In this document: one piece after another, positions 53,571 to 64,000 of the stretch
How the letters are laid out: each line of letters starts with the position of its first letter
How positions within the stretch are numbered: the stretch's first letter is position 1
From: an uncultured Mycoplasmatota bacterium
GTDB taxonomy: Bacteria > Bacillota_I > Bacilli_A > RF39 > UBA660
Assembly: GCA_947302655.1 (NCBI GenBank)
Contig: CAMYVW010000001.1
Span: 248,001 to 312,000, forward strand
Direction: 5' to 3'
Length of the DNA stretch: 64,000 bases
Program-made: the position numbers and the translations under genes
The notes under the pieces: model-generated
What the model was told of the DNA's origin: nothing
Database searches by the model: none
What the model saw: only the letters and a program-made list of their open reading frames with translations

Positions 53571-53605
53571 GATTTTTTGTATCGAGCATACGCCTTAAAG
53601 AAAAA

Positions 53606-53636
53606 ATAATAAAACTAATTAATAGTTTTATTATTT
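53606..53636 (-). terminator. Terminator of the gerM-like gene
   Basis: AATAATAAAACTATTAATTAGTTTTATTATTTTTT on the minus strand. Confidence 0.65.
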
Positions 53637-54526
53637 ATTCTTACTGTGTCAACATTATACGTATCTTTAACAGAGTATGTTATTCCATACATAACTTCTT
53701 CATCAATTTCATTAAATCCATTAAATATTAAATTATTAAATTCAAGATTAATTTCATTTTCTAAAATTTCATAATTTTTAAGTTCAGTTCCTGCAATAAT
53801 ATATGTTGATAAATTATCATCAATATAATCTTTACCAGATAGTTCATTAATAATAACTTCTATTTTTTCTTTTTCACTATTAACTGTAAAAGTAATAGGA
53901 ATATAATAATTTGTATCATTATAGCTATTAATAAAGTAAGCTGTAACACTTTTTGTATCTTTAAAACTATTAATCATAGATTTATGATTAATACCTATAT
54001 CTCTTGTTAATACTTCAGGTAATACTTTGTTTATATTTGGTATTCTTATTAATGGCTCGCCATTAATAAGAATTTTAACTCTATTAATACCATCTATTTC
54101 AGTTAAAGTATATACAATAGATTCGATAATTTTTTCTTCATGTCCTTCATTATTTTTAAATAAATTATCATTAAAATCTATTGTAATAAGATCATTTTCT
54201 ATTTTTAAGCCATTTAGAGTTGTGCTATTTGATATATAAGATGTAAAACCCAGAGGTAAGTATTTGTTCTTATTAGAACCATTAATTAAAGCTTCAATTA
54301 ATTCTTTAGCAATATTTTCTTTACTTTCTTTATTGATATTAATATATGTTCTTGAAACATAATTATTTTTATCAATTAAATATATAGCTGAAGTTTTTGC
54401 TTTTTTATATATTGTTTTAGTAGGTACTTTAATTTCATTTTTAGGAAAGATATATATACTTACTAAAACAATTATAAGTGCAAAAGATGCCACAATAATT
54501 CTTCTAAATGATCCTTTTTTTAACAT
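53615..54526 (-). CDS. GerM-like protein with two GerMN domains
   Basis: N-terminal TM; paired domains ENIAKELIEALINGSNKNKYLPLGFTSYISNSTTLNGLKIENDLITIDFN...VYTLTEIDGINRVKILING and EKIEVIINELSG...YGITYSVKDTYNVDTVRIN. Confidence 0.82.
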   Translation of the reverse strand: MLKKGSFRRIIVASFALIIVLVSIYIFPKNEIKVPTKTIYKKAKTSAIYLIDKNNYVSRTYININKESKENIAKELIEALINGSNKNKYLPLGFTSYISNSTTLNGLKIENDLITIDFNDNLFKNNEGHEEKIIESIVYTLTEIDGINRVKILINGEPLIRIPNINKVLPEVLTRDIGINHKSMINSFKDTKSVTAYFINSYNDTNYYIPITFTVNSEKEKIEVIINELSGKDYIDDNLSTYIIAGTELKNYEILENEINLEFNNLIFNGFNEIDEEVMYGITYSVKDTYNVDTVRINNKTIN

Positions 54527-54585
54527 GTTTTCACCTATAAAAATAATATGAAATATATAAAAAAATATAACTATTTTATTTATAG

Positions 54586-54792
54586 TTATATTTTTACTTC
54601 ACCAATTTTAATAAGTTCAACTAAAGCTTGACTTCTTCCTTTAGAACCTAGTTTTTGTATTGTATTAGAAATATGATTTCTAACAGTTTTTTCACTAATA
54701 CCTAATTCTTTTGATATTTCTTTAGTGTTTTTATTTTTAACTAAAAGATTAAAGATTTCTTGTTCTCTTTTAGTTAGTATATGATTTTTCAT
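54586..54792 (-). CDS. GerE-like LuxR-type HTH regulator
   Basis: LTKREQEIFNLLVKNKNTKEISKELGISEKTVRNHISNTIQKLGSKGRSQALVELIKIGEV; stand-alone 68-aa HTH. Confidence 0.82.
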   Translation of the reverse strand: MKNHILTKREQEIFNLLVKNKNTKEISKELGISEKTVRNHISNTIQKLGSKGRSQALVELIKIGEVKI

Positions 54793-54864
54793 ACCTAGTT
54801 TCCTTTCATTTTATATATCCACTTACTTTTATAATATGAAAGAAAAAAAGGGTTGTGTAGGTTA

Positions 54865-55356
54865 CTAACCTTCAAACTTAACTGTAATATATTTATTTTC
54901 TTTAAATTTTTCTTGTACACTTTTTATAATTTTATTAGCGATCTCATTATTATGAACATCACTTGATATGGTTATACTAATTTGATTATCTCTTATTTTA
55001 ATAAAACTATCATAATCAAATTCTTTCTTTATTAACCTTGATAATTCTTCTTCTTTCGTTTTATAACTTGAAATCACCTCAAGTTCATCATAAGCATTAT
55101 TCTTTTCTTCTAAAGTTGCCTCATCATCAAGAAGTATATTTTGTAGTTCATCAATTTTTCCCATGGTAGATTCATCATCAGCAACTTTTAAAACGCTTAT
55201 ATTATTATCATCTGAAGAACTATTAGCTACATATGAGGAGCTGGATTGATATTTACCCATAGTTAAACTAGTTTGATCAGTTGAAAAATAGTAGATTCCT
55301 AAAACAATAATAAGTGAAAAAAGTGTAATAAACCATAAGCTTTGTTTATTTATCAT
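54865..55356 (-). CDS. SpoIIIAH-like protein
   Basis: MINKQSLWFITLFSLIIVLGIYYFS N-terminal TM; beside gerE/gerM; ORF 54865..55374 with a likely start at MINKQ. Confidence 0.75.
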   Translation of the reverse strand: MINKQSLWFITLFSLIIVLGIYYFSTDQTSLTMGKYQSSSSYVANSSSDDNNISVLKVADDESTMGKIDELQNILLDDEATLEEKNNAYDELEVISSYKTKEEELSRLIKKEFDYDSFIKIRDNQISITISSDVHNNEIANKIIKSVQEKFKENKYITVKFEG

Positions 55357-55482
55357 ATAATCCTCCTTTATCATGATAATATATATGATTAATTGCGATA
55401 AATATGATTTATTTAAATAGACTTATTGTTTTATTAAGTATATTTTGATATATTTTATATATGTATAAGGAAGGCTAAAAAA

Positions 55483-56652
55483 ATGAAAAACAAACTTATT
55501 ATAACTTTATTTATTGTTATTTTATATTCAGTATTTTTCTTCGTGCCTATAAAAGAATTGTTAATAAGAAGAGGCACTATAAATTATTATAGATCTGATA
55601 ACTGGGAACTAGTTAGTAAATCTAACGATAAAATCTATGATAAAATCATGACTTTAGAAGCATTTATTAAAAATAGATACAATAATTATTTTCCTTTTTA
55701 TAATAAAATAAATAATTTATATTATAGCTCTATAATTAATGTAGATAAATTATATTTAAACGATATATATCTAAAAGATAATGCAGATAATGAAAGAATT
55801 TTTTATAGTGATGAAAATAATTTTTATTATGTTCTAAATAAATACTCTAAAAAAGAATTAGAGGACAGATTAGATAAAGAAGCATCATTTTATAATGAAA
55901 TAAATGATAAATATCCAAGTGTTAATTTAGCTTTATATATTCCACTTAGATATGAATCATTTAAGTTTAATAATATAAATTCGAATTATGATTTAGTTAA
56001 TGAGTTTATAAAAAAATTAAATTCAAATATTAAATATGACTTCTATAGTGTTAATAATTTAGAAGAATATAGTAAGTATTACTATAAAACAGATCACCAC
56101 TATAATTCAAACGGAGCCGAAATAGCATATAAAGATATTTTAAATATGTTTAATATTGATAACAAATTAGAAATATCTCATAAAGATGTTTATGAACCAT
56201 ATTATGGTTCTATGGCAAAAAGTACTTTACTTAAAAAAGTAAGTGATAAATTAACAGCTATAGATATTTCTAATAGTTTAGAAGTTAATATAGATGATGT
56301 TAATTTTAAACCACTTGAAAAGAAAGATAGAAAAGATCCTTTTTATGATTATTATGTTGGTTATTTTAATGGTATGTATGATGAAATCATTTATAAAAAT
56401 AATTCATCATTTAATAGAAATCTATTAATTATAGGTGATTCTTATTCATGGCAGGTAGATTACTTACTTGCAACAAACTTTGATAAAACTTTTGTTATAA
56501 ATACTAAATATGGTAAGTGGATAGATAATGATTTAGTATTAAAAGATTATATTAAAGAAAATAATATAACTCATATATTATTCTTTAGAGAAGCAAAAAA
56601 CCTAATATTTGATGCTGATAATTTAAAAGTAGATAAGAAGGTGATTAGGTAA
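55483..56652 (+). CDS. AlgX/DHHW-type SGNH-like acetylation-associated protein
   Basis: TDHHYNSNGAEIAYKDIL; LLIIGDSYSWQVDYLL; directly followed by an MBOAT gene. Confidence 0.75.
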   Translation: MKNKLIITLFIVILYSVFFFVPIKELLIRRGTINYYRSDNWELVSKSNDKIYDKIMTLEAFIKNRYNNYFPFYNKINNLYYSSIINVDKLYLNDIYLKDNADNERIFYSDENNFYYVLNKYSKKELEDRLDKEASFYNEINDKYPSVNLALYIPLRYESFKFNNINSNYDLVNEFIKKLNSNIKYDFYSVNNLEEYSKYYYKTDHHYNSNGAEIAYKDILNMFNIDNKLEISHKDVYEPYYGSMAKSTLLKKVSDKLTAIDISNSLEVNIDDVNFKPLEKKDRKDPFYDYYVGYFNGMYDEIIYKNNSSFNRNLLIIGDSYSWQVDYLLATNFDKTFVINTKYGKWIDNDLVLKDYIKENNITHILFFREAKNLIFDADNLKVDKKVIR

Positions 56653-58004
56653 TGGTATTCTCATCAGTTATATTCTTATTTGCATTTTTACCACTATTCT
56701 TATTTTGTTATTTTGTACCTAAAAATATCAAAGTAAAGAATGTAGTACTTTTATTATTTTCTCTAGCATTTTATGCTTGGGGAGAACCATATTATTTTTT
56801 CTTAATGCTTTTTATGATAATTGTTAATTACAAATTAACAATTAAGATGGAAGAAAAGGAAAGTAAGAAAATATTTATTTTTTTGGTAATATTTAATTTG
56901 CTTTCTTTATTTTCATTTAAATATTTAAACTTTTGTATATCTAATTTAAATAATGTATTTAATTTAAGTATTAAAAGCTTAAATTTATCTTTACCTATAG
57001 GTATTTCATTTTATACATTTCAAGTATTATCATATGTTATTGATGTCTATAATAAAAAGGTAAAAGCACAAAAAAGTTTTATTAATCTTGCTTGTTATGT
57101 AAGTGCTTTTCCTCAGCTTATAGCAGGACCTATAGTAAGATACACTGATATTGAAAAGGAAATTACTAATAGAAAAACTACATCAGATGACTTTGCTGAC
57201 GGAATTAGAAGATTTATTACTGGTTTATCAAAGAAAGTATTAATTGCTAACAATGTATCATATGTATGTGATTCTATCTTTGCTCTAGGTGCACCAACTG
57301 TTGGTTTTATTGGTATACTAATAGCAATAGTATCATATACAATGCAAATCTATTTTGATTTTTCAGGATATTCTGATATGGCAATAGGCCTTGGAAGAAT
57401 GTGTGGTTTCCATTATAATGAAAACTTTAATCATCCATATATTTCTAAATCAGTTACAGAGTTTTGGAGAAGATGGCACATATCACTATCGTCATTTTTT
57501 AAAGACTATGTTTATATTCCCCTTGGAGGAAATAGGAAAGGTACATTTAAACACATTAGAAATATTTTAATTGTATGGGCTTTAACTGGACTATGGCATG
57601 GTGATTCATGGAACTTTATTTTATGGGGATTATATTATGGAGTTATTTTAATAATAGAGAAGTATTTATTTAAAAAAAGAAAAATATCATCACATATCTA
57701 TACAATGGTTATTGTTATGATTGGCTGGCTTATTTTTAGACAAACAAATATGAGTGACTTAATTACTTCATTTAAAGGTTTATTTGGCTGTTATGGTTTA
57801 GGAAGTATAAGAAGTTTATATTATCTAGGGATATTTTCATCAAGATATATTATTGCTTTTATCTTTGCTATTATCTTATCAACAAATTTAATAAAATTTA
57901 AAGATAGTATTAGTAAGGATGTACTTTTAATTATATTATTTATAATTTCAATAATATTTGTTGTTGTAAGTAGTTATAATCCCTTTATTTATTTTAGATT
58001 TTAA
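56652..58004 (+). CDS. MBOAT family O-acyltransferase (AlgI-like)
   Basis: FSGYSDMAIGLGRMCGFHYNENFNHPYISKSVTEFWRRWHISLSSFFKDYVYIPLGGNRKG; TGLWHGDSWNFILWG. Confidence 0.94.
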   Translation: MVFSSVIFLFAFLPLFLFCYFVPKNIKVKNVVLLLFSLAFYAWGEPYYFFLMLFMIIVNYKLTIKMEEKESKKIFIFLVIFNLLSLFSFKYLNFCISNLNNVFNLSIKSLNLSLPIGISFYTFQVLSYVIDVYNKKVKAQKSFINLACYVSAFPQLIAGPIVRYTDIEKEITNRKTTSDDFADGIRRFITGLSKKVLIANNVSYVCDSIFALGAPTVGFIGILIAIVSYTMQIYFDFSGYSDMAIGLGRMCGFHYNENFNHPYISKSVTEFWRRWHISLSSFFKDYVYIPLGGNRKGTFKHIRNILIVWALTGLWHGDSWNFILWGLYYGVILIIEKYLFKKRKISSHIYTMVIVMIGWLIFRQTNMSDLITSFKGLFGCYGLGSIRSLYYLGIFSSRYIIAFIFAIILSTNLIKFKDSISKDVLLIILFIISIIFVVVSSYNPFIYFRF

Positions 58005-58028
58005 AAGGAAGCTTTGCTTCCTTTTTTA
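58005..58028 (+). terminator. Terminator after MBOAT gene
   Basis: AAAAGGAAGC-ttt-GCTTCCTTTTTT. Confidence 0.8.
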
Positions 58029-58106
58029 ATTTTCTAAAAAAATTTGAAAATAAAAAAGGAAATGAAGAATTTTTCGGAAAAGTATATTAGTGAAGGGAGA
58101 ATAATA

Positions 58107-60155
58107 ATGCATAAGAAAGTTTTCGTAGTAAAACAGCATGACATCACTGACTGTGCACCAGCATGTTTATTGTCAATTATTAGCTTTTATGGTGGATACG
58201 TTCCTATTGAGATTATTAGACTTAAATGTGAAACTAATCATAACGGAACCTCTGCTTACAATTTAATTGAAGCCGCAAGAGAACTTAATTTTAAAGCTGA
58301 AGCTTTAAGGTGTAAGAGTTATCAGGATTTAATTGAAAAGAATAGTTATCCATGTATAGTTCATCTAAAACTAAAAAACAATCTTAATCACTTCGCAGTC
58401 TTATACTTTATATGTGATAAATATGCAATTTTAATGGATCCTGCAGTTGGTAAGGTTAAGATGAGCATTAATGAGTTTAAAGATATATTTACTAATGTCA
58501 CTATATTATTACAACCTCAATCAACCTTAATCAAATTTGAAAAACCAAATACAATTAAACAAGTAATATCCTCATTTTATCTTACCAATAAAAAAATAAC
58601 TCTAAAATTACTATTATTAAGTTTTTTCTTAGTATTAGTTTCCTTATCAATTAGTTATTTTATTAAATGTGGTTCTCTTGCATTATCAGGGGATTATGGT
58701 TTGCCTATATTATTCTATATCATGTTTATTTTTTTTATTGCATACATATTAAAAAATGTAATCGACTATAAAAAGAATGAATTAATAATATATGCCAATA
58801 AAAACATCAGCGCTGATTTATACGAAAAGTTTTCCCATCAATTATTTATTCTTCCTTTAAATTTTATTAAATCGAAAACTAGTGGTGAAATAATTAGCCG
58901 TTTTAGTGAGCTTTCACAAATAAACAAAATGATTCCTGAAATTATTGTAACTATAAGTTTAGATTTAATAATGGCATTATGGGCACTTATATTTTCTTGC
59001 TTTATTTCGACATATTTATCATTATTAAGTGTTGTTTTAATGCTTATATATTTTATTATATCTTTTGCATTTAAAAATCCGACATTGCAAAAAATTAATA
59101 AAAATATCACATTATCAAGTGAATTTAATACATGCATTATTGATAATGTAAATTCAATTATTAGCACTAAATATACTAATAATGAAGAAAATATGGAAAA
59201 AAGATTAGAAAGAAGTGGAACCAGTTATCTACTTAATAATATGAACCTTGAGACATTTTTTAACAAATTAAATGCTTTAAAAAACGTTTTATATGATCTT
59301 GGAAGATGGTTAATATTATCAATTGGTTTATATTTATGTTTTAAAAGAAAATTAAATGTAATTGATCTATTTACTTTTGAAATAATTATTAACTATTTCT
59401 TTGAATCAATTAAAGATATGGTAGGTATGCTGCCAAGCATCTGCTACTTTAAAACATCGTTATTTAAATTAAATGAGTTTTCAATAATAAAAGAGGAGAA
59501 TAATGAAGCATTTAATTTTAAAAATGGTGATATTAAAGTAGAAAATTTATCATTTTCTTATGACAATAATAATTTTATATTAAAAGATATTAATATTTTT
59601 ATTAAGGAAAATGAAAAGATCTTACTTCAAGGTTGTTCAGGTTCTGGTAAAAGTACTTTCTGTCAGATTTTAAGTAAACAACTAAACTATAAAGAGGGAA
59701 GTGTAACCATAGGAGGCGTAGATATTAATGATATTAAATCTAATGATTTTCGAAAAAATATTACCTATATAGGTCAGAAAGATTCATTAATTGTTGATAC
59801 TATTTTAAAAAATATAATTTATGAAAGGAATATTAATGATAAAAATCTTGAAGATATATGTAAAATTTGTGAGATTGATAAAATAATAAAAAACAAGATT
59901 AATCGTTATAATGAGATTGTTAATGAATCTTCGATAAATATATCAGGTGGTGAAAAACAAAGAATAATTTTGGCAAGAGGACTTATTAATCCTGGCCAAA
60001 TCATAATACTTGATGAGGCGTTAAGTGAAGTTAATAAAGATATGGAAGAAAGAATAATAAATAAAGTATTTAAATATTTTAAAGATAGAACAATAATCTA
60101 TGTTTCACACAAAGACTATAAAAATATTTTTAAGAAAAGGATATTAATTAGTTAA
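58107..60155 (+). CDS. Peptidase-containing ABC transporter (C39 domain, double-glycine peptide exporter)
   Basis: VKQHDITDCAPACLLSIISFYGG (catalytic Cys), NHFAVLYFI (His), LMDPAVGK (Asp); Walker A GCSGSGKST, ISGGEKQRIILARGL; ATG 58107 after GAAGGGAG. Confidence 0.93.
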   Translation: MHKKVFVVKQHDITDCAPACLLSIISFYGGYVPIEIIRLKCETNHNGTSAYNLIEAARELNFKAEALRCKSYQDLIEKNSYPCIVHLKLKNNLNHFAVLYFICDKYAILMDPAVGKVKMSINEFKDIFTNVTILLQPQSTLIKFEKPNTIKQVISSFYLTNKKITLKLLLLSFFLVLVSLSISYFIKCGSLALSGDYGLPILFYIMFIFFIAYILKNVIDYKKNELIIYANKNISADLYEKFSHQLFILPLNFIKSKTSGEIISRFSELSQINKMIPEIIVTISLDLIMALWALIFSCFISTYLSLLSVVLMLIYFIISFAFKNPTLQKINKNITLSSEFNTCIIDNVNSIISTKYTNNEENMEKRLERSGTSYLLNNMNLETFFNKLNALKNVLYDLGRWLILSIGLYLCFKRKLNVIDLFTFEIIINYFFESIKDMVGMLPSICYFKTSLFKLNEFSIIKEENNEAFNFKNGDIKVENLSFSYDNNNFILKDINIFIKENEKILLQGCSGSGKSTFCQILSKQLNYKEGSVTIGGVDINDIKSNDFRKNITYIGQKDSLIVDTILKNIIYERNINDKNLEDICKICEIDKIIKNKINRYNEIVNESSINISGGEKQRIILARGLINPGQIIILDEALSEVNKDMEERIINKVFKYFKDRTIIYVSHKDYKNIFKKRILIS

Positions 60156-60156
60156 A

Positions 60157-60537
60157 GTGATTGAAAACTATTTTGAATTAAAGTTTTATAAACATAAAAA
60201 TAATAAATATTTATTTTATATTCTGACTTTATTAATAACTTTCTTAGTTTTTCTATCTCGAATAAAAATCAACAAATATGTTAATTTCAAACTACTTAAA
60301 ATAAATAACATTTACTATATTAAGTGTGAAAATCATTGTAGTACTATCATGAATAGAAATACTATACAATTTGATAATCACAATTTAAAATACAAGTTTA
60401 AAAGTAAGATGGATAATCTATATGAAATTAATATATTAGATAAAAATGAAATTAATAATAACGCTGATATTAAAATCCCATTAAAAAAACAAAGTGTACA
60501 TAATGCACTATTTAATATTTTTAAGAGAAAGGAGTAA
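60157..60537 (+). CDS. Small membrane protein in bacteriocin-like locus (accessory or immunity candidate)
   Basis: 126 aa, single TM YLFYILTLLITFLVFLSRI, between exporter and precursor peptides; GTG start. Confidence 0.6.
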   Translation: MIENYFELKFYKHKNNKYLFYILTLLITFLVFLSRIKINKYVNFKLLKINNIYYIKCENHCSTIMNRNTIQFDNHNLKYKFKSKMDNLYEINILDKNEINNNADIKIPLKKQSVHNALFNIFKRKE

Positions 60538-60689
60538 TGAAATTGGAAATATTAAAACAAGAAGAATTAAAAAATGTTATGGGAGGAGGTATCACTTTTA
60601 AGTTTATTATGGGACTAATAACTGCAGGGACATTCATTGTTGGGTTAGTTGATGGTTTCCTAAGACCTTTAAAGTGTAGAAACTACTAG
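60537..60689 (+). CDS. Double-glycine leader precursor peptide 1 (50 aa)
   Basis: MKLEILKQEELKNVMGGG/ITFKFIMGLITAGTFIVGLVDGFLRPLKCRNY; overlaps upstream stop by 1 nt. Alternative TTG start 60543 has better AGGAG spacing. Confidence 0.78.
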   Translation: MKLEILKQEELKNVMGGGITFKFIMGLITAGTFIVGLVDGFLRPLKCRNY

Positions 60690-60690
60690 T

Positions 60691-60846
60691 ATGAAACAAA
60701 ATGAATTAAAAAACATCTATGGTGGATCATTTAATTTTACAACAACATTCTTTAATTCAATATCAAGATATATAACTACAGTTAAAAGTGTAGCTGAATC
60801 TATTGGTAGCTCAATTAGAAGAATATTTAGTAAAAGATATTGCTAG
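60691..60846 (+). CDS. Double-glycine leader precursor peptide 2 (51 aa)
   Basis: MKQNELKNIYGG/SFNFTTTFFNSISRYITTVKSVAESIGSSIRRIFSKRYC; starts 1 nt after the preceding stop. Confidence 0.75.
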   Translation: MKQNELKNIYGGSFNFTTTFFNSISRYITTVKSVAESIGSSIRRIFSKRYC

Positions 60847-60850
60847 ATAG

Positions 60851-60884
60851 TAAAAGTTGATACAAATATGTATCAACTTTTTTA
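60851..60884 (+). terminator. Terminator closing the bacteriocin-like operon
   Basis: AAAAGTTGATAC-aaatat-GTATCAACTTTTTT. Confidence 0.85.
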
Positions 60885-60919
60885 AGTTAGACAAATATAT
60901 TTTCGTATATGTATAACTT

Positions 60920-61229
60920 CATTTTCCGCAACTGCTAATCAGGGAACTCTAAGGCAAAATAGTTGTTATTAAGTTGGATCTGTTTGTACATGTTCATTTC
61001 ATATAAGCAACGTAAACTCAACAAATTTTGCTGCATGATCTGAAAAACAAACTTTAAAATAACTGATCAATATAAACCTGCATATTCAGTATATTTTCCT
61101 TATAGTTATGTTGGAAACGGAGTTTCAAATAGCCACTATGAGTACCTTACAATAAATGGTAAAGTTATACTTCAAAACTCTAACGGTGATATTACAGATA
61201 TATTAATGAATGTAACGTGGTTCATTTAA
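60920..61229 (+). pseudogene. Decayed coding fragment resembling the C-terminus of a phage/tail-type structural protein
   Basis: FKITDQYKPAYSVYFPYSYVGNGVSNSHYEYLTINGKVILQNSNGDITDILMNVTWFI* preceded, after a frameshift, by QGTLRQNSCY*VGSVCTCSFHISNVNSTNFAA*SEKQ. Confidence 0.4.
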
Positions 61230-61335
61230 AAATACAGTAGAGTTATTTTTCCCCTTTAATCCTTTAAAAACTACTTGTATAATCATAACTTATTTGCTAT
61301 AATAACCAGTAGTTGAAGTCGAAGGGAGGGAAATC

Positions 61336-61530
61336 ATGACTAAGGTCGTTGTTCAAAATGGTAACATTGATGGAGCTTTAAAGAAATTTAAGGCAAAAGT
61401 TGCAAGAAGCGGTGTCCCTTCAGAACTTAAAAAAAGAAAACATTATGAAAAACCAGGGGTTAAAAGAAGAGAAGCTAAAAAAGAAATGATTAGAAACTCT
61501 CGTAAAGCTAGCCGTAATAAAGGATTTTAA
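61336..61530 (+). CDS. rpsU: 30S ribosomal protein S21
   Basis: VVVQNGNIDGALKKFKAKVARSGVPSELKKRKHYEKPGVKRREAKKE; RBS AAGGGAGGG. Confidence 0.96.
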   Translation: MTKVVVQNGNIDGALKKFKAKVARSGVPSELKKRKHYEKPGVKRREAKKEMIRNSRKASRNKGF

Positions 61531-61559
61531 TAAACACTTTTAAAAAGTGTTTTTTTATT
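61530..61559 (+). terminator. Terminator after rpsU
   Basis: AAACACTTTTTAAAAGTGTTT-type hairpin with T-tract. Confidence 0.7.
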
Positions 61560-61598
61560 TTCTTAAATATTCCTGCATATAATTTATAAGGTGAAATT

Positions 61599-61844
61599 AT
61601 GAAAGCAATTGATAGATTAAAATATGGGTTTCGCAGTAAAGAATATTTTATATCTATATATCCTGATCATATCTATGTAATAAATTATAAAGATATCATT
61701 GATTTTACAGCTAATAATATCATACTTGAATTTAATGATTTTAAACTTAAAATTAAGGGATTAGATTTTAAAATAATTAGAAAAAACAATTGTGAAATTG
61801 ATATTTTAGGTTTTTTTAATTCAATGGAGATAATTAATGGGTAA
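61599..61844 (+). CDS. YqfC-like sporulation protein
   Basis: YPDHIYVINYKDIIDFTANNIILEFNDFKLKIKGLDFKI; overlaps the yqfD-like gene. Confidence 0.8.
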   Translation: MKAIDRLKYGFRSKEYFISIYPDHIYVINYKDIIDFTANNIILEFNDFKLKIKGLDFKIIRKNNCEIDILGFFNSMEIING

Positions 61845-62952
61845 TATATTAATAAAATGTCATAAAAAAAATGAGTCATATATTTTAAAGAAAATTATTA
61901 AAAATGATATTAATATTATCAATTCTAAGTATACTAAAGAATATATCTATTATTTGATTTCAGAAAATGATTATGAAAAATTGCTAAAAATTGATTATAA
62001 AAAAATAATTGATATTGAAAAACATATTGGGATTAAAGAAATAAAAAATGCTTTTGTAAGAAATATGGAAAAAATACTAATATCGTTAGGGATTGTTATT
62101 TTAGTTTTTTTATCTAAACTATATATTTTTAAAGTAAATGTTTACGTTAATGATTTAAATTTAAAAAAAATCATCACTTACACATTAATGGATGAAGGTA
62201 TTAAGGATAATTCTTTAGTTAAATCGTTTAATGATATTAATAAAATAAAAAATAGAATTTTAAAAAAATATAATGATGAAATAGAATGGCTTGAAATATC
62301 TAAAAATGGATATGAATATGATGTAAGAATAATAAAAAGAGAGAAAAGCGTAAAGAAAAATGAAAGTGAAAAATGTAATTATGTAGCTTCAAAATCTGGA
62401 ACTATTAAAACTATTATGGCAAGAAAAGGAGTTTTGCTTGTTCAGGAGAATAACTTTGTTAATAAGGGAGATATTTTAATAAGTGGTGATATTGTTTACA
62501 ATGAAGAATTGAAAACAACGGTATGTGCACAAGGATTAATAACAGGTGAAGTTTGGTATAAAGTAAATGTCTCATACCCACTAAAAAAAATTAAATATTA
62601 TAAAAAAAAGACAAGCTTTTATAACATGAATTTTAATTTTCTAAATAGAAAGTACAAATTATTTAAGGATAGGTATGATAATAGTAGAAAAATAATATCA
62701 ATTGGTAGTAATAATATAGGCTTAGTTATAACTAATTCATTTAAAAAATATAAAAAAGTTATTAATTATAGTGAAGAAGAAGCATTAAAAAAATCTATTG
62801 ATTTAGCTAAGAAGAAAGTATTATTAAAAGCAAATAAAAATTCTCATATTTTAAGTGAAAATATTTTGAAGAAAGATATAAAAAATGGTAAAATAAATGT
62901 GGAAGTTCTAATTACAGTAGAAGAAGAACTTGGGGTTGTAGAAAACTACTAG
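61837..62952 (+). CDS. YqfD-like sporulation protein
   Basis: Central TM; KCNYVASKSGTIKTIMARKGVLLVQENNFVNKGDILISGDI. Confidence 0.85.
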   Translation: MGNILIKCHKKNESYILKKIIKNDINIINSKYTKEYIYYLISENDYEKLLKIDYKKIIDIEKHIGIKEIKNAFVRNMEKILISLGIVILVFLSKLYIFKVNVYVNDLNLKKIITYTLMDEGIKDNSLVKSFNDINKIKNRILKKYNDEIEWLEISKNGYEYDVRIIKREKSVKKNESEKCNYVASKSGTIKTIMARKGVLLVQENNFVNKGDILISGDIVYNEELKTTVCAQGLITGEVWYKVNVSYPLKKIKYYKKKTSFYNMNFNFLNRKYKLFKDRYDNSRKIISIGSNNIGLVITNSFKKYKKVINYSEEEALKKSIDLAKKKVLLKANKNSHILSENILKKDIKNGKINVEVLITVEEELGVVENY

Positions 62953-62967
62953 AAAAAGGTGATATGA

Positions 62968-63579
62968 ATGGTTCTAGATTTATTTGCCAAAACACTTAAT
63001 AGTGTATGGCCAATGATAGCAATTTTCTTATGTGTTTTAATAACAAGCAGAATTGCTTATTTAATTCTTCATCATAAGAAAGTAACAGTATATAAAGAAA
63101 TATTTGCACTTATATTTATCATATATATGCTTTTATTATTTGAACTATTAACTGCAACTGATACAAATACTTTTCATGGTATTAACTTAAAACCATTTGC
63201 AGAAATATCAAGATATAAATTTGGATCTAGATTATTTAATATTAATGTTTTTGGAAACATATTAATATTTATTCCATTCGGAACATTTATTGCATCTTAT
63301 ATTAATTCAAAGAAAGCATTCCCGGTTTTTGCTGTTGCACTTTTAACTAGTACTGTTGTTGAACTGGTACAACTTAAAATAGGTAGAAGCTTTGATATTG
63401 ATGATATTTTATTAAATGTTATTGGTTCCATATTAGGATACTTACTTTATAAATTATTAAAATCTATCAAAAGAAGATTACCAAGATTTTTCAGAAGTGA
63501 TCTTTTCATGAATTTATTTAGTATAATAGCATTTATTATCATCATTTACTGGCTTTCTCTTAGAATAGGAATAATATAA
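62968..63579 (+). CDS. VanZ-like family membrane protein
   Basis: NVFGNILIFIPFGTFIASYI; VVELVQLKIGRSFDIDDILLNVIGSILGYLLY. Confidence 0.88.
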   Translation: MVLDLFAKTLNSVWPMIAIFLCVLITSRIAYLILHHKKVTVYKEIFALIFIIYMLLLFELLTATDTNTFHGINLKPFAEISRYKFGSRLFNINVFGNILIFIPFGTFIASYINSKKAFPVFAVALLTSTVVELVQLKIGRSFDIDDILLNVIGSILGYLLYKLLKSIKRRLPRFFRSDLFMNLFSIIAFIIIIYWLSLRIGII

Positions 63580-63580
63580 T

Positions 63581-64000
63581 ATGAATAAAATTACAATTGA
63601 TAATGAATATGGATATAAAAAATATCGATACTTAAAAAAAGTTTTAAACGCTGCATTAAAACATGAGAAAATTGATAATGCTGTATTTTCCATAATATTT
63701 GTTGATAACGAGACTATTAAGGATATAAATAGGGATTATCGAAATATTGATAAAGTCACAGATGTTATATCATTTGCGTTTGAAGATAATGGTAAACTGG
63801 TGTATAATAATGTTCGATTGCTTGGAGAAATATACATATGTATTCCAAGGATGATAGAACAAGCAAAAGAATATGGTCATAGTGAAAAAAGAGAATTATC
63901 TTTTCTAGCAGTTCATGGACTTTTACATTTGCTAGGTTATGACCATATGAAAAAAGAAGATGAAAAAGTAATGTTTGCTTTACAGGAGTTGATTTTAGAT
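63581..64000 (+). CDS. ybeY: Endoribonuclease YbeY (3' end truncated by window)
   Basis: Open from ATG 63581 to the edge; RNIDKVTDVISFAF, LLGEIYI, FLAVHGLLHLLGYDHMKKEDE. Confidence 0.94.
   Translation, partial: MNKITIDNEYGYKKYRYLKKVLNAALKHEKIDNAVFSIIFVDNETIKDINRDYRNIDKVTDVISFAFEDNGKLVYNNVRLLGEIYICIPRMIEQAKEYGHSEKRELSFLAVHGLLHLLGYDHMKKEDEKVMFALQELILD

Follow-up and report, generated by a model that had tools for sequence, protein, structure and literature searches.

A Family-Wide Two-Peptide Exporter Operon With a Putative Sigma-H-Type Promoter in Reduced-Genome Bacilli

Introduction

An operon encoding a C39 peptidase-containing ABC exporter and two small double-glycine (GG) peptide precursors is present in about 95% of a family of reduced-genome Bacilli, across about 150 genera. 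We explain it best, holding belief and doubt in about equal measure, as a chromosomal, vertically inherited two-peptide system that is coupled to competence or stationary phase and works like the fratricide peptides CibAB. Of all its features, a putative promoter of the sigma-H/competence type, which the initial annotation of this DNA had missed, accounts for the system best. Two-peptide bacteriocins are usually seen as patchy, fast-changing, strain-level weapons. With the present pair, the link between competence and killing becomes testable outside streptococci. Its fixation in so many genera of gut bacteria with very small genomes, and its connection to genes for DNA uptake and sporulation, imply a basic function. 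For this uncultured lineage the analysis yields two core-peptide families, a candidate decoy immunity protein and a regulon. Our literature search on RF39 bacteriocins found no relevant report.

Organization of the Operon

The window is the whole stretch of 64,000 nucleotides that was analyzed (G000:C1:248001-312000). It belongs to a genome (G000) of 1.04 Mb that is 94% complete; the closest relatives with names are MAGs labeled ‘Bacilli bacterium’ from the rumen and omasum of water buffalo. Genome size and gene content suggest that the lineage is the uncultured order RF39. The initial annotation had proposed one operon of exporter, small membrane protein, two GG precursors and a strong terminator, and every part was found in its place on the forward strand. 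The terminator of the preceding gene (58003..58025; 10-bp stem and T-run, dG -11.5, z -2.7) sets the operon apart from that gene. It is followed by the putative sigma-H-type promoter and a ribosome-binding site (58055..58101; AAAGGAAAT-N10-TCGGAAAAGTATATTAGTGAAGGGAG) and by the exporter gene (58107..60155), in which the annotated C39 domain was confirmed (Peptidase_C39, PF03412, 1.8e-31) together with the ABC membrane and ATPase domains (Pfam PF00664 and PF00005). The gene for the accessory membrane protein (60157..60537) begins with GTG, and the precursors of peptide 1 (60543..60689; MEILKQEELKNVMGG / GITFKFIMGLITAGTFIVGLVDGFLRPLKCRNY) and peptide 2 (60691..60846; MKQNELKNIYGG / SFNFTTTFFNSISRYITTVKSVAESIGSSIRRIFSKRYC) come next. 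The operon ends at a rho-independent terminator (60852..60881), a 13-bp hairpin followed by a T-run with a dG of -13.8 kcal/mol and a z of -4.4. No Rfam family was found at 57900-61600, and a structured RNA is thus not supported in this region.

Two details of peptide 1 had to be revised. The open reading frame holds, but the TTG at 60543 is a more probable start than the ATG at 60537: the TTG is kept in two genus members and lies 8 nt from AGGAG, whereas the ATG lies only 2 nt from it. The GG leader also holds, but from the pattern E(-8)L(-7)..V(-4).G(-2)G(-1) cleavage is predicted after the first GG, which would give a core GITFKFIMG... that is one residue longer than annotated.

Distribution and Inheritance

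We took 101 family loci, and the 90 in which 1.2 kb or more of sequence follow the exporter form the set for pair counts. Separate, adjacent peptide genes occur in 87 of these 90, in the same order behind an orthologous exporter, so the two small open reading frames are not chance. Of the remaining three, G004 has the two peptides fused, and in the other two genomes an insertion splits the pair, with peptide 1 broken after GxxDG and peptide 2 displaced. Peptide 1 was recognisable in 89/90 relatives, and wherever each peptide gene occurs just once (86 loci), that of peptide 1 always comes first. An alignment search recovered peptide 2, usually in single copy, from 359 of 385 genomes of the order (290 of the 306 of high quality). 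In a class-wide sample it was present in 26/28 family genomes, and the 190 genomes outside the family gave one weak, leader-only match. A C39 exporter was matched in 273 of 291 sampled family genomes, nearly always once each, and is the sole C39 match in the window genome. Four of the five genus genomes have an orthologue, which is interrupted in G004; the fragmentary G003 gave generic ABC matches only. The initial annotation had named lack of conservation in exporter-carrying relatives as evidence against its own reading, and such relatives do conserve the pair. In many genera the operon lies between SpoIIIAH and rpsU-yqeY-yabP-yqfD, a conserved position that indicates an ancestral trait passed on vertically. 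A mobile origin was considered and rejected, as tblastn gave no match in plasmids (window peptide 2) or phages (peptide 2 of a relative).

Some loci depart from the common layout. One (L103, G049) has two peptide pairs in tandem, and two others (L075 and L076) have a third GG peptide that lacks the RPLKC tail. In G004 (L040:7832-10187) the exporter has a frameshift in its C39 domain, and a peptide 1 without the RPLKC tail is fused in frame to peptide 2 (90 aa), which is either decay or an assembly error. Peptide 1 of G129 is split after GIIDG, and its 3' end lies with peptide 2 about 37 kb away, adjoining a large serine recombinase (L233, exporter end +53 to +320; L335:2260-3900). It is broken at the same place in G019, where a phage terminase gene lies downstream (L206, L337). 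The peptide 1 gene looks like a prophage attachment site; in Listeria, comK is such a site.

Mature Peptides and Selection

The mature peptides are hydrophobic and cationic helices of 32-39 residues with the patterns GxxDGxxRPLKCN (peptide 1) and (S)AxxxNAxxRxxxxxLxxGRxxGSxIRRxxSxxxC (peptide 2). AlphaFold predicted peptide 2 as a single long helix with moderate confidence (pLDDT 74). The GxxxG motif previously noticed in peptide 1 (GLVDG) is a family-wide trait, present in 96% of the peptide 1 cores of 94 relatives and in 99% of their peptide 2 cores; peptide 2 of the window has the GxxxG-like AxxxG (AESIG) where relatives have GxxxG. The single cysteine near each C-terminus, likewise noticed before, is kept in 99% (peptide 1) and 98% (peptide 2) of relatives. 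Compared with the nearest species, the window has 19 synonymous and 5 non-synonymous changes in the core of peptide 1 and 11 and 9 in that of peptide 2, and this synonymous excess means that the peptide genes are under purifying selection. Both cores are as conserved as the exporter and evolve no faster (mean identity.377,.371 and.343, respectively), whereas the accessory protein is far more variable (.196). Distances of the two peptides co-vary after exporter distance, an imperfect control for phylogeny, has been removed (partial r.33; permutation maximum.16). For single residues, the co-variation signal of the pair was noisy, with end-gap columns prevailing, and it was left out.

Searches of Pfam, NCBIfam and PDB sequences with both window peptides gave leader-level matches only. 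The GG-leader families suggested by the initial annotation were thus found, weakly, at the leaders (lactococcin G-beta and cerein 7B families) but not at the mature cores, which without leaders match no described family. Some peptide 1 sequences of relatives score higher than the window precursors against curated bacteriocin families. Judged by their sequences, the cores appear to constitute two new core-peptide families.

A Promoter Element Shared With Competence and Sporulation Genes

When the operon DNA was searched against the window genome, its 5' end matched at two additional places. The element AAGGAAAT-N10-TCGGAAANGTAT occurs there exactly three times, before the operon, comEA and a RhuM/Fic gene; comEA is followed by comEC, and ComEC is present. 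G001 and G002 have two copies each, and a reversed-pattern control of the element gave no matches. All four genus members checked carry the element before comEA, exactly (G000 and G002) or in a near-identical version (G001 and G004). In distant genera it takes the form AAGGAAAT-N12-TCGAATAA, which in G029 precedes both the exporter and comEA-comEC. It also precedes comK (PF06338, 2.5e-46) in G079 and spoIIAA-sigF in G052, and close variants stand before the exporters of G052, G055 and G079. Relative to 403 control genes, the motif is enriched before exporters (p 1e-10 and 4e-13). AAGGAAW is found 53-68 nt before the exporter in 48/100 loci, and about half have no clear box.

The sigma-H consensus of B. 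subtilis is RNAGGAWWW-N11/12-RNNGAATWW. Sites of the G029 and G052 type fit it perfectly, and the relatives resemble the B. subtilis sigma-H regulon in the -35 AGGAAAT, the spacing and the -10 GAATAA, whereas the window genus has the -10 variant CGGAAA instead of GAAT. In Bacillus, sigH sits between rlmB and nusG, and a SigH-like factor is encoded at this place here, with a score below the NCBI equivalog cut-off. We know of no two-peptide exporter operon under such sigma-H control in B. subtilis. The spoIIA operon, whose spoIIAA-sigF counterpart in G052 carries the element, is sigma-H-dependent in B. subtilis (PMC9931155). From these sequence resemblances the operon promoter is putatively of the sigma-H type. 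The off-consensus -10 of the window, the missing box before half of the exporters and the SigH score below cut-off count against our explanation.

Further genes have similar upstream sites. In G029 we counted nine near-identical sigma-H-like sites (L315-L322). Apart from the exporter and comEA, the genes behind them look, on visual inspection, like FtsK/SpoIIIE, a TasA/camelysin-like protein and transposase- or nuclease-like open reading frames. The RhuM/Fic gene of G000 (Virulence_RhuM and Fic domain) has a similar, element-bearing counterpart in G001 (L037:2319-3300, L306, L308), and through the shared element it may belong to a competence regulon.

Accessory Protein and Candidate Immunity Protein

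The exporter likely cleaves the GG leaders and exports the peptides, given its domains. Its neighbor, the accessory protein, is predicted to consist of one TM helix and a small beta-barrel domain (AlphaFold2 pLDDT 90.8). It is present in 62/90 relatives and missing in about 30%. Accessory proteins from 11 of 30 loci match the mycoplasma MAG1140 family NF045999 (best 8.6e-8), of which, by sequence, the protein is a distant homologue. Mycoplasmas thus offer a related arrangement, as Mbov_0121 (NF045998) is a C39 ABC exporter and MAG1140 a homologous TM/beta-barrel protein, whereas the window proteins stay below both equivalog cut-offs (277 vs 500 bits and 13 vs 35 bits, respectively). The best Foldseek matches of the fold were weak (ATP-synthase barrels, E 0.04, TM 0.44), so that an HlyD-type origin is only a guess. 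The protein is probably an export accessory and possibly an immunity protein.

A dedicated immunity gene was not found in the window operon, which holds no further open reading frame. In 24/90 loci an open reading frame that we call P3 overlaps or abuts the peptide 2 stop. In the encoded protein, a copy of the C-terminal half of peptide 2 (LGRxxGTxIR...) comes after a TM segment. P3 candidates, which had been preselected by a GxxG-type regular expression, clearly outscore shuffled sequences under the peptide 2 model but not under the peptide 1 model, and two were recovered independently by whole-genome scans. On the exporter tree P3 requires 5 changes compared with 18 when shuffled, and thus had few origins. 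P3 is possibly an immunity protein that mimics the C-terminus of peptide 2; the window has none. That the window lacks an immunity gene, and that 25/90 relatives have neither accessory protein nor P3, counts against our explanation.

Comparison With Known Two-Peptide Systems

The initial annotation had assigned the operon to the class IIb two-peptide bacteriocins. Its anatomy fits, with GG leaders, a C39 exporter, a hydrophobic and a cationic peptide, GxxxG-type motifs and a single operon, but the label itself is too strong. In this class, full antimicrobial activity requires both peptides. The class is defined by a dedicated transporter, an accessory protein and an immunity protein in the cluster (PMC6957408). 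The operon has two adjacent, different GG-leader precursors, GxxxG-type motifs in both, and a dedicated transporter with an accessory protein of presumed export function. A dedicated immunity protein is lacking in the window operon, and the cores match no bacteriocin family. In addition, the system is near-universal, vertically inherited and conserved, unlike patchy, diversifying bacteriocins. The closest members, lactococcin G and enterocin 1071 (NF038034, NF038035) and lactobin A/cerein 7B (TIGR03949), share GG leaders, C39 exporter, accessory protein, GxxxG-type motifs and paired adjacent genes with it, whereas the window precursors fall below every curated cut-off of these families.

The best functional parallel seems to be fratricide by CibAB, a competence-induced two-peptide bacteriocin of Streptococcus pneumoniae (PMC5295010). 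In CibAB(C), too, two small peptides are made from an alternative-sigma competence promoter alongside DNA-uptake genes (PMC5295010). The promoter that the operon shares with late competence genes (comEA-comEC in G000, G001, G002, G004 and G029, comK in G079) corresponds to this. In contrast to CibAB(C), the present system is a core trait throughout a family of Bacilli unrelated to S. pneumoniae. Its operon includes an exporter of its own, each of the two peptides has a C-terminal cysteine, and no evident immunity gene is present in the window.

Possible Function and Alternative Explanations

According to our explanation, the C39 exporter would remove both GG leaders and export both peptides. 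Peptide 1 would form a hydrophobic helix with a GxxDGxxRPLKC end, and peptide 2 a cationic amphipathic helix with GRxxGSxIRR...C. The two helices might pair via their GxxxG-type faces, with the C-terminal cysteines perhaps locking the contact, and the pair would then enter the target membrane like class IIb bacteriocins. The operon would be read from the sigma-H-type promoter along with comEA-comEC and, in relatives, comK and spoIIAA-sigF, and such a common promoter suggests that the pair is released at entry into competence or stationary phase. The most likely targets would be non-competent siblings or close kin, which would be permeabilised and their DNA freed. In one branch, P3 might bind peptide 1 and so protect the producer. 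The full combination, a core-genome pair coupled to sigma-H and competence, held together by disulfide or GxxxG contacts, with mimicry immunity by P3 occupying peptide 1 in one branch, is a tentative proposal with a modest chance of being correct. If it holds, fratricide would be ancestral to an entire lineage and not a weapon of single strains.

Bacteriocins normally diversify and these cores do not, which counts against our explanation. The same conservation, with near-universal, single-copy occurrence and the absence of an immunity gene in the window, favors the main rival, namely that the pair is not a toxin but a conserved competence or sporulation pheromone released by a ComAB-like C39 transporter. 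The promoter in common with com genes would fit this, and ComC is likewise processed and exported by ComAB (PMC5295010). Nevertheless, we consider a pheromone unlikely, because always-paired helices of this length with GxxxG differ from the short ComC pheromones, no kinase/regulator pair was recognised in the operon, and pheromones also usually diversify. An ordinary narrow-spectrum class IIb bacteriocin against other species, with a promoter likeness that reflects mere stationary-phase expression, would account for the operon anatomy, the GxxxG-type motifs and the weak leader-level matches. The family-wide, single-copy and vertical distribution, the conserved cores and the lack of an immunity gene make it improbable, as does the restriction of the element to two or three copies per genus genome while comEA has it in 4/4.

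If the pair instead acted non-lytically on the producer itself, forming a channel or scaffold in its membrane that serves DNA uptake or sporulation, no immunity would be needed, and the conservation, the co-regulation with comEA-comEC and spoIIA and the adjoining sporulation genes agree with such a role. We regard it as very unlikely, since we know of no precedent for exporting such components by way of a GG leader and P3 resembles an immunity or decoy protein. That the small open reading frames are untranslated or decaying remnants, as the frameshifted exporter and fused, tail-less peptide 1 of G004 might suggest, has a next to negligible chance in view of the synonymous excess and the family-wide conservation; for the window, the synonymous excess of the cores rules it out.

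Genomic Neighborhood

Upstream of the exporter, at 55483-58004, the window encodes an AlgX-like protein and an MBOAT O-acyltransferase, a pair found only in G000 and G002 among the 101 loci and probably a recent insertion next to SpoIIIAH. Between the operon terminator and rpsU (60890-61240) lies an apparently decayed coding sequence (...YVGNGVSNSHYEYLTINGKVILQNSNGDITDILMNVTWFI). Around the operon (53600-64000), this genome of about 1 Mb keeps SpoIIIAH, YabP, YqfD and several sporulation-type sigma factors, and their retention suggests that the organism may still form spores.
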